Assembly (NCBI GenBank): GCA_022571615.1 | Contig: JACZXM010000012.1 | Span: 1-17,134, forward strand | Length of the DNA: 17,134 nucleotides | Source of the DNA: Acidobacteriota bacterium | GTDB taxonomy: Bacteria > Acidobacteriota > UBA890 > WLXD01 | Reading direction: 5' to 3' | In this document: positions 4,506 through 14,549 of the stretch, piece by piece | How positions within the stretch are numbered: position 1 is the first letter of the stretch | How the letters are laid out: each line of letters opens with the position of its first letter | Notes under the pieces: model-generated | Seen by the model: the letters and a program-made list of their open reading frames with translations, nothing else | Database searches by the model: none | What the model was told of the DNA's origin: nothing | Made by a program: the position numbers and the translations under genes

Positions 4506-6233
4506 ATGTCGAACACATTGCGGACATCGCGCAACTCGGACCGCGTGCTGCGCGTCGTAGCGCTGGTCGTTCTTGCCGCCGGCGTGTCGACCAACGCGCT
4601 TGCACAGGTTGCCGCGGCGCAACCGGTGCAGACGCTCCAGGGCACGGTGCAGGACGCTCGTGGAGTTCCTTTGCTCGGTGCGTTCATCGCCGTCATCGCG
4701 CTCGGGTCCGACCAGCCTTCGGCGGTCGTGGTGACCGACTCGCGCGGCGACTTCCAGGTGCGCAACCTGCGCGCCGGGATGTACTCGCTGCTGGTGGGCA
4801 GCCTGGGATTCACCGGCACTCTCTTGCAGGGGATCAATGTTCCGACCGCCGCTCCCATCAGCCTGCAGCTCGAACCTAGCGACGGGCGCACGCTGCCGGC
4901 CTTCGACGTTCCGCTCGACCTTAGCTGGGCGCTGCGCTCGAGCAAGCGCGACGTGCTGCGGCAATCCGATGCCACGCTGGTAAGCGACGCTGGCGATGTC
5001 GTCTCTGATAGGGCGGGCTTCTGGGCCCCTTCGGTCGCCGCCGCTGGAGATGTCGCGCCGGTTGTCGGCGAGTTCCGGCTCTGGAGCGTCACCACGGCGG
5101 GTGACCACCAGAGTGTGGGTGTCACGTCTTTGGCGCTTGGAAGTAAGAACAGCTGGGATCTGACGGCTCATGTCGGGGATCGGGGCTCGATCTGGGCATC
5201 GAGCAGCTTCAACTGGTCGTTCGGTTCTGCACACTCCGTTGGCGTCGGTTTCGGGTACGTAGGCGGAAACTTCGGTCTGCTCGAACAAGTCGGTGTCGAT
5301 GCGGAGGTTCACGACAACTGGATCGGCCGCTTCGAGGCGCGCGACACCTGGCAGGTGAGCAGGCCGCTTTCGGTGTCCTATGGCGTTCGCTACGAGCACC
5401 ACAACTATCTGGCCGAGAACGCGCTGCTGTCGCCGAGCATCGAGATCGCGTTCACGCCGCTCGCCGACACGCGCTTATTCACGGGCGTCGCATACACCTC
5501 CGAGGGTCTCGATCTGGCGCGTCAAGATGCTGGCTTCGAGATCCTGTCGCTGCTGGGGCAGACCAACCTGCGGCTTGCCGACACCGGCGACGTGAACCCG
5601 CAGCGTACGTTGCGCTACCACCTGGGGTTGGAGCAAAGAATCGGGCAGGCGCATGTGAGCGTGAAGGCCTACTACTACGACATGACCGACGAGCTGCTCG
5701 GGGTTTACGTCTCGGACCGAAGCGGCTCCAACAGCTACCTGTTGTTGAACGTTGGCGACGCCAACGCGCGCGGCTTCGAGCTCGGCGTGGCCGGCGAGCT
5801 GATGGACGCTGTTTCGGGACAGATCACGTACGCGTTCCGTGATCGCGATACCGAGTACGAGCTGCCGAGCCCCGATTTGGTTGCGGTCATGGGCGCCGAC
5901 TTCGGTGGTTGGAGCGTGCAACAGACCCACGAGTTGCAGGCCTCGGTCTCGGCCGAGCTGGCCCCCTCGCACACCCAGGTAGTGGCGAGCTACAACTGGC
6001 GCCGTGGGATGCCGGTGGTGCGCGACGGCGAGGTGACCGACGAGTACGGTCGCCTCGATGTCCAAGTGCGGCAGCTGCTGCCGTTCCGGGGGCTGCAGAC
6101 CGAATGGTCGGCCATGCTGCACGTGCGGAATCTGTTGGGGCCCAACGAGTACGACGGTCTGTTCAACGTTTCCTTGGCCGAGCTGATGGGCCTCACGCGC
6201 GGAATCGCGGGAGGCTTGGCGGTTCGTTTCTAG
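4506..6233 (+). CDS. Secreted carboxypeptidase-regulatory domain / outer-membrane barrel protein (TonB receptor-like)
   Basis: This 575-residue protein starts with a signal peptide: a basic N-region, hydrophobic core at about 15-28, and likely cleavage after ALA at 31-33. Residues about 42-122 form a carboxypeptidase-like regulatory domain (LQGTVQDARGVPLLGAFI, then SRGDFQVRNLRAGMYSL). A linker with LSWALRSSKRDVLRQ follows. The rest, about 190-575, alternates hydrophobic and polar residues like outer-membrane beta strands. It includes a block resembling TonB-dependent receptor barrels (RTLRYHLGLEQRIGQAHVSV, then NVGDANARGFELGV) and ends in a terminal Phe (GGLAVRF), the usual barrel-insertion signature. 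I do not see a TonB plug domain, and the protein is short for a TonB-dependent receptor. The substrate is unknown. A strong terminator lies 109 bases after the stop. Confidence 0.7.
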   Translation: MSNTLRTSRNSDRVLRVVALVVLAAGVSTNALAQVAAAQPVQTLQGTVQDARGVPLLGAFIAVIALGSDQPSAVVVTDSRGDFQVRNLRAGMYSLLVGSLGFTGTLLQGINVPTAAPISLQLEPSDGRTLPAFDVPLDLSWALRSSKRDVLRQSDATLVSDAGDVVSDRAGFWAPSVAAAGDVAPVVGEFRLWSVTTAGDHQSVGVTSLALGSKNSWDLTAHVGDRGSIWASSSFNWSFGSAHSVGVGFGYVGGNFGLLEQVGVDAEVHDNWIGRFEARDTWQVSRPLSVSYGVRYEHHNYLAENALLSPSIEIAFTPLADTRLFTGVAYTSEGLDLARQDAGFEILSLLGQTNLRLADTGDVNPQRTLRYHLGLEQRIGQAHVSVKAYYYDMTDELLGVYVSDRSGSNSYLLLNVGDANARGFELGVAGELMDAVSGQITYAFRDRDTEYELPSPDLVAVMGADFGGWSVQQTHELQASVSAELAPSHTQVVASYNWRRGMPVVRDGEVTDEYGRLDVQVRQLLPFRGLQTEWSAMLHVRNLLGPNEYDGLFNVSLAELMGLTRGIAGGLAVRF

Positions 6234-6262
6234 CAGCCCGCGCCACTTCTGCCACGGGCTGC
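6233..6262 (+). repeat. REP-like palindromic repeat (short copy) at the barrel gene stop codon
   Basis: Perfect 8-bp arms GCAGCCCG (6233-6240) and CGGGCTGC (6255-6262) enclose a 14-base loop. The left arm begins on the last base of the TAG stop. The right part, CCACTTCTGCCACGGGCTGC (6243-6262), matches the palindrome inside folK (minus strand, 14236-14283) at 19 of 20 bases, and the left arm matches as well. This copy lacks about 16 internal bases relative to the folK copy. No T-tract follows, so it is not a classical terminator by itself. Confidence 0.65.
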
Positions 6263-6342
6263 CAGGTGTGTGGAGGTGTAGTACGGCGGTCCGCCCCCTC
6301 AGGGCGAAGCAGGGGACGCGCCGCGGGATGAGAAACAGGGTG

Positions 6343-13988: not shown

Positions 13989-14549
13989 TCAGCGTCCCGC
14001 GAACTCGGATGGTGGGGGAGCCAGCAACCATACCCGTTCGTCTCGGTGAAGCTGCGCGAGCAGTTCCCCGACGCTTCTTGCCAGGAGGGGATGAAGAGCA
14101 CTGGGCGCGATCTCCACCAGCGGTTCGAGCACGAACCGACGCTCGTGCATCCGCGGGTGCGGGATCGCCAAACTCGGCCCATCGACCACCAGCTGATCAT
14201 AAAGCAGAACGTCGAGATCCAGGGACCTGGCCTCCAGCAGCCCGTGGTAGAAGTGGCGGGACTCGCAACCGCCACGGGCTGCTTGCTCGGGAGCCTGTCG
14301 GCACCGACCGCAGCGCCGCTCGACCTGCAGGCACAGCTCCAGCAACCGCTCTGGCGCCGGCGGGTCGGTCACTTCAGCGACGCAATTCAGAAACCACGGC
14401 AGGTCCGGGTCGCCGACCGGCTCGGTCAGATAGATCGACGAAACCGTGCTGATACGGATCCCGGCGGCGGCAAGCTCACGCAACCCCTGTAACAGCCACG
14501 CTGCACGGTCGCCTTGGTCCGACCCCAACCCGAGATAGGCGTTTTTCAA
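13989..14549 (-). CDS. folK: HPPK (2-amino-4-hydroxy-6-hydroxymethyldihydropteridine pyrophosphokinase) with a 16-residue palindrome-encoded insertion
   Basis: This folate-pathway enzyme transfers pyrophosphate from ATP to the hydroxymethylpterin. It has 186 residues; E. coli HPPK has about 159. The N-terminus YLGLGSDQGDR, the pterin-contact region (EPVGDPDLPWFLNCV), the Mg-binding LDLD (Asp111, Asp113) and IPHPRMHERRFVLEPL are all present. Arg82 and Arg84 are in the same positions as in E. coli, but the next active-site elements (E. coli Arg92, Asp95, Asp97) appear 16 residues later, at 108, 111 and 113. The extra segment is encoded by the 48-bp palindrome at 14236-14283 and replaces the loop that holds Trp89 in E. 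coli. The start is TTG with GGGAG 7 bases upstream. Whether the enzyme is active with this insertion is unknown. Confidence 0.9.
   Translation of the reverse strand: MKNAYLGLGSDQGDRAAWLLQGLRELAAAGIRISTVSSIYLTEPVGDPDLPWFLNCVAEVTDPPAPERLLELCLQVERRCGRCRQAPEQAARGGCESRHFYHGLLEARSLDLDVLLYDQLVVDGPSLAIPHPRMHERRFVLEPLVEIAPSALHPLLARSVGELLAQLHRDERVWLLAPPPSEFAGR
14236..14283 (-). repeat. 48-bp palindromic element inserted in frame in folK
   Basis: Perfect 12-bp arms AGCAGCCCGTGG (14236-14247) and CCACGGGCTGCT (14272-14283) enclose 24 bases. A second nested hairpin can form from GTGGCGG (14253-14259) and CCGCCAC (14269-14275). On the minus strand the element encodes residues 90-104 (AARGGCESRHFYHGL) plus edge bases. 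Its length is exactly 16 codons. Its right part on the minus strand recurs at 6243-6262. I infer a mobile or formerly mobile palindromic repeat. Confidence 0.75.

Follow-up and report, generated by a model that had tools for sequence, protein, structure and literature searches.

In-frame palindromic elements are described above all for Rickettsia (PMC10969869, PMC2229807). The Rickettsia palindromic elements (RPE) consist of repeated palindromic DNA, 105-146 bp long, that lies in frame inside conserved protein genes and also in intergenic DNA, and a guanylate kinase that carries an RPE is translated and keeps its activity, with an altered substrate affinity (PMC2229807). Terminal inverted repeats, often with TA motifs, and frames fused to host ORFs are reported for Coxiella QMITE, enterobacterial RU/ERIC and the Neisseria 107-bp element (PMC2229807, PMC5896051, PMC10969869). 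Furthermore, the work on IS1272, a member of the IS1182 family, describes 16-bp repeats, the absence of target duplication and the replacement of inverted repeats in new insertions (PMC5678879).

The locus described here lies in an Acidobacteriota contig of which a stretch of 17,134 nucleotides (the window) was analyzed. It resembles RPE in that a palindrome is read in frame inside conserved protein genes, in this case folK and a second gene, L081. Unlike RPE, the folK copy is 48 bp long, short forms start at 32 bp and paired ends span up to 276 bp; moreover, the host belongs to the Acidobacteriota, the ends match those of an insertion sequence that is the likely parent, and the half-sites accepted as mid-gene copies number only 2 in 104. 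With QMITE, RU/ERIC and the Neisseria element it shares terminal inverted repeats, TA motifs and open frames, but it differs from them in phylum, apparently in end sequence, and in having a copy in the middle of a gene, within an enzyme loop, for which a relative shows the empty site. In-frame palindromes or MITE fusions are reportedly also present in Wolbachia, going by the title of a paper. As in-frame palindromes are already known elsewhere, for instance in Rickettsia, what is new here is the phylum, the likely parent transposon and the stop-codon bias.

We consider it very probable that the 48 bases in folK belong to a MITE-like family of short palindromes dispersed in this Acidobacteriota genome, which would be mobilized in trans by an IS1182-type transposase and would enter at TA. 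The observations that support this reading are the many copies, their shared ends, the TA found at most junctions, a relative with an empty site at the protein level and a second in-frame case. The family is filed here as MITE-like by its ends, its TA junctions and the existence of an insertion sequence with the same ends, and it is not assigned to the RPE.

The palindrome in folK and the extra residues of HPPK

The folK gene (HPPK; positions 13989..14549, minus strand) has a TTG start, encodes 186 aa and matches PF01288 (HPPK) with 104 bits. Its ORF (14549-13989) holds all 48 bases of the palindromic element (14236..14283, no strand assigned), in which two perfectly complementary 12-bp arms, 14236-14247 and 14272-14283, enclose a 24-bp middle; coordinates and ORF therefore agree with the original prediction of a 48-bp palindrome lying in frame inside folK. 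The whole codons of the element correspond to residues 90-104 (AARGGCESRHFYHGL), with partial codons at both sides. One side carries the full 23-nt terminal repeat of a dispersed family (AGCAGCCCGTGGTAGAAGTGGCG; 14236..14258, plus strand, 0 mismatches against the family pattern) and the opposite end carries 12 nt of the same repeat, inverted (14272..14283, minus strand).

The 48-nt strand folds as DNA with a z score of -4.9 (0 of 200 shuffles as good), and a 71-nt stretch around the element folds as RNA with a z score of -3.0 (1 of 200). Nevertheless, the palindrome is unremarkable by itself, because 22 of 200 first-order Markov simulations contain at least one as good as the single 12-bp perfect palindrome with a loop of 50 or less that the window holds; taken alone it is weak evidence and could be due to chance. 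What is remarkable is that it coincides with extra residues and belongs to a genome-wide repeat family. The window gave no match to Rfam at gathering scores.

In a multiple alignment the HPPK P0002, 88% identical to the window protein, does not have the extra residues, and P0001, 91% identical, carries a diverged copy of the insert. Comparison of P0002 (GRRRRAPEPAARCLDLD) with the window protein (GRCRQAPEQAARGGCESRHFYHGLLEARSLDLD) gives a difference of exactly 16 residues, and between Arg82 and the second Arg there are 25 residues in the window protein and P0001 against 9 in P0002, the 16 additional ones amounting to 48 nt. The predicted addition of exactly 16 residues, or 16 codons, was thus confirmed, and the proposed comparison of close relatives gave a filled site (P0001) and an empty one (P0002) at the protein level. 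The insert is also missing from the same-family genomes G001-G003. By parsimony, the lineage of P0002 would have branched off before the insertion and that of P0001 after it.

In the MAFFT alignment R82, R84, R108, D111 and D113 occupy the positions that had been claimed for them; the E. coli residue numbers are those of the original prediction. R82, R108, D111 and D113 are invariant in 65 aligned HPPKs (the window protein and 64 of the 120 homologs listed), and the loop between them is expanded. Both the PF01288 domain and the catalytic Arg/Asp residues are present, in agreement with the assignment to the HPPK class. The stretch between the two Arg residues varies from 8 to 39 residues, is 8 or 9 residues long in 82 of 121 sequences and is longer than that of the window in 5 of them, counts that come from a single MAFFT alignment of the window protein and 120 listed homologs, out of 4307 found, in which at least P0047 looks misaligned. 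As loop length spans this whole range among the aligned relatives, the insertion site appears to be a loop that tolerates changes of length. The other long loops that were printed are mostly Pro/Ala/Gly-rich and do not contain the peptide of the element.

It had also been claimed that the insertion cost the enzyme its Trp89. This is not supported: the window protein does lack Trp in the inter-Arg stretch, but the same is true of 116 of the 121 aligned HPPKs, the window included, so that the missing Trp89 is a trait of this HPPK group. The idea of a selfish palindrome inserted in frame therefore stands as regards the repeat family, the empty-site relative and the preserved frame, and is not supported as regards the loss of Trp89. 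An AlphaFold2 model of the window HPPK (mean pLDDT 90.6) has an intact core, with residues 95-102 below 50, which fits a floppy extension of the loop. According to this model, the added residues would form a disordered extension of loop 3 and, with the HPPK core undisturbed, the enzyme probably retains its activity. The window HPPK and P0002 would serve as two natural alleles for comparison, one carrying the 16 residues in a loop next to the active site and one lacking them.

The dispersed repeat family and its likely parent transposon

The terminal repeat of the family follows the pattern [T]AGCAGCCCGTGG(C/T)AGAAGTGGCG. A search of the host genome (G000, 71% complete) with the 23-nt end AGCAG(C/G)CCGTGG(C/T)AGAAGTGGCG at up to 3 mismatches returned 124 matches, and the reversed control returned 0; the element is thus dispersed and multi-copy, as expected for a MITE. 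The exact 48-mer, on the other hand, is unique to folK even with up to 3 mismatches, and a search with both 10-bp arms also found folK's copy only. By themselves these two results would point to a one-off sequence; a 61-base query exposed the family with 74 matches in the host genome (40 of 91 candidates were scored, and several matches are the two arms of one copy). The expectation that the element would recur elsewhere in the host genome consequently holds for the family and fails for the exact 48-mer.

Going by the sequences compared, it is this dispersed family, and not the palindrome, that settles the case. Ordinary variation of loop 3 length in HPPK, accompanied by a palindrome arisen by chance, would agree with the range of 8 to 39 residues, with the five loops longer than that of the window and with the equally good palindromes of the 22 simulated windows. 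However, the inserted DNA matches over 23 nt, without mismatch, a repeat found 124 times, the length of the element equals that of the insertion, and the second gene, L081, has undergone the same kind of event; the repeat copies refute length variation as a full account, and we regard it as very improbable. A local inverted duplication, with the palindrome generated in situ by template switching at a hairpin rather than by transposition, would explain why the arms are perfect over 12 bp, as one arm could template the other. Yet the 23-nt identity to dispersed copies runs past the arm into the middle, and the occurrence of AARGRSG in L081, an unrelated gene, would be left unexplained, which makes such an origin extremely unlikely.

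The end is also present in other genomes. At up to 2 mismatches, a search of 98 genomes gave matches in two of them only, 71 in G000 and 4 in G079 (the reversed control gave one match, in G001). When 396 genomes from the phylum were searched with 20 nt of the end at up to 1 mismatch, 11 had matches, namely 76 in G000, 34 in G342, 33 in G184, 28 in G376, 11 in G392 and 1-4 in each of six others; one of these six is G003, of the same family as the host, which has 1 match. G184, G342, G376 and G392 thus stand out with 11-34 matches. An exact 21-nt version occurs in 22 stretches of named genome contigs, in a scan that may omit the genome of the window itself, and the records are titled Acidobacteria/Acidobacteriia, Terriglobia, Thermoanaerobaculia and Candidatus Sulfopaludibacter, all of them groups within the Acidobacteriota. 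At the loci of several records the same end is followed by quite different interiors. Contigs of one record (L125, L135 and L142-L144) end some 145-150 bases into the element, as would be expected if short-read assembly came to a halt at this repeat.

The literature search, as far as titles and abstracts show, returned no description of this repeat, and a text search for GCAGCCCGTGG gave nothing related by title. K. versatilis and T. saanensis are acidobacteria. Terminal-repeat families with tyrosine transposases are described in these two organisms (PMC3733652).

In G099, the genome of L125, whose record is titled Candidatus Sulfopaludibacter, the same end bounds an element of about 1454 bp (L149, about 195-1648), whose transposase-side end occurs at 8 places with different flanks. 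As in the IS1182 family, this element combines terminal repeats with an IS1182-like transposase: the best NCBIfam match of its ORF is NF033551 (IS1182 transposase), with 172.3 bits, below the curated cut-off of 270, and the ORF also matches DUF772 and DDE_Tnp_1. The match to the family ends near residue 362, so that the copy may not be intact. Unlike IS1272, the repeats described here have a TA motif at their junctions and include short copies without transposase. We consider the IS1182-like insertion sequence of G099 the likely parent element of the family. Ends shared with an autonomous transposon were found in G099 and not in the host genome, and in the copies examined, with interiors compared by eye, the G000 family shares with the G099 insertion sequence only the ends.

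A search of the host genome found no transposase with these ends, and since this genome is 71% complete a parent may be missing from the assembly. A search for IS630-type DDE_3 in it found nothing. Its single IS1182-like ORF, on C254, was considered as the mobilizing enzyme and rejected, the 3.3-kb locus being without the 18-nt end at up to 5 mismatches. We also considered whether the repeats are REP/REPIN elements that depend on a RAYT (a tyrosine transposase) for their movement. The repeats are, like REP/REPIN, short, palindromic, numerous and mostly extragenic, and some copies show GTAG. However, the 71%-complete G000 gave 0 matches to RAYT (Y1_Tnp) in a search that was positive in 5 of 14 control genomes, and, unlike REP/REPIN, the element has a two-ended architecture bounded by terminal inverted repeats that are shared with a DDE insertion sequence. 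This origin is accordingly judged highly unlikely.

Junctions and a second in-frame copy

The junctions were studied in 104 half-sites from 86 sources, collected from the window and the retrieved stretches at up to 4 mismatches and with duplicates removed, a set that excludes places counted but unlisted by the 23-nt search of the host genome. TA is present at the junction in 75 of them, and C at the preceding position in 73 of the 104. A right end was found within 32-65 bp in 33 half-sites, 14 of them at exactly 32 bp, some of these pairings being possibly due to chance as one mismatch in 8 was allowed. Furthermore, eight outward-facing pairs span 60, 88, 167, 168, 174, 176, 276 and, doubtfully, 1177 bp (L054), so that seven of the eight combine terminal inverted repeats with the small size of a MITE (60-276 bp).

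With respect to genes, called with a simple codon-model caller trained on the ORFs of the window and not with a published gene finder, 63 of the 104 half-sites are intergenic, 36 lie at gene edges and 5 fall inside called genes. Three of the candidate in-gene copies were dropped: in L080 the element is upstream of what appears to be the MutS start, in L067 it is near a doubtful start and in L115 it is at a contig edge. The accepted mid-gene copies are therefore those of folK and L081.

L081 encodes a membrane protein of GT39 type (a name taken from a homolog) that carries the AARGRSG peptide of the element. Where L081 has 46 residues, 119 of its 120 listed homologs have 32-33, which is 13-14 fewer. 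The exception is P0121, 95% identical to L081, with 52 residues there; when its extra residues are compared with the translation of the interior of L046, a long member of the family, 20 of 24 positions agree. The in-frame inserts are 48 bp in folK and 39 bp in L081, and one gene site thus holds the element in two lengths (L081 and P0121), both of them in frame.

These data also bear on the possibility that the palindromes are targets or scars of an IS1182-type element that replaces inverted repeats, as IS1272 does, the present state resulting from insertion and imprecise loss of a longer element. L081 and P0121 could be a short and a long remnant at one site, the short forms cluster at 32 bp (14 of 33) and the parent-type element in G099 is IS1182-like; moreover, the IS1272 study describes three new insertions in which stem-loops were replaced with no target duplication (PMC5678879). 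However, TA is found at 75 of 104 junctions, as for TA-targeting MITEs, and the same study places the older copies of IS1272 either at inverted repeats or at plain targets (PMC5678879). We see in this a genuine possibility, though an unlikely one.

Entry into coding frames

Under the preferred reading of a MITE-like family, an IS1182-type DDE transposase acting in trans would insert the element at TA, most likely in a CTA Leu codon of the loop between Arg82 and Arg92. An element of 46 bp plus a duplicated TA would give 48 bp, that is, 16 codons; the duplication is deduced from the TA found at 75 of 104 junctions of the family, empty and filled sites having been compared at the protein level. 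Neither junction of the folK copy shows TA: in the sense strand its junction codons are CAA and CTG, each one base off the CTA that the family would give. The frame is open when TA occupies codon positions 2-3; in this phase the element would be translated as Ala-Ala-Arg-Gly ... His-Gly-Leu-Leu and folK would stay open. The two phases other than the one in which TA opens a stop codon are open in both directions at the end of the element (LAARGRSG / RHFCHGLL and SSPWQKW / PLLPRAA).

The repeat has a strong bias for stop codons. In 26 of 104 half-sites a gene that reads into the element has a stop codon starting at the junction (23 TAG, 2 TAA and 1 TGA), a count that mixes hits in old stops with new stops that truncate genes, and in the same sources called stop codons begin at 101 of 3520 TA dinucleotides, repeat junctions with TA included. 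Since G follows TA in the consensus, insertion into TAA or TAG would leave the gene with a stop again. The window holds a second copy, a 32-bp short form of the family (6232..6263, minus strand, 1 mismatch in the 23-nt end), and the TAG stop of the 4506-6233 ORF (6231..6233, plus strand) is made of the T adjoining this copy and its first two bases.

We find it rather doubtful that the transposon end has been shaped for harmlessness in genes, by TA entry, by its initial G and by the rebuilding of a stop codon that is hit. If this were true, short peptides would be scattered over Acidobacteriota genomes, in enzymes, in signal peptides and at C-termini, and protein-coding palindromes would gain a traceable parent transposon. 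Apart from this idea, the family arrives at the Rickettsia outcome in a different phylum and has both a recognizable transposon end and a likely parent element, which would make the entry route of selfish palindromes into proteins testable.

Going by the translations only, copies lie at the very start of two predicted genes (L041, about 1503-1531, and L088, about 1249-1292), inside apparent lipoprotein signal peptides that read MRRHFCHGLLA... and ...RHFWHELLA..., respectively. Likewise, the translations indicate that copies make the last codons of called genes in L065 (1071-1093), L078, L097 and L107. The L065 gene, which we take to be TruA, ends in EQAVVEV* within the element.
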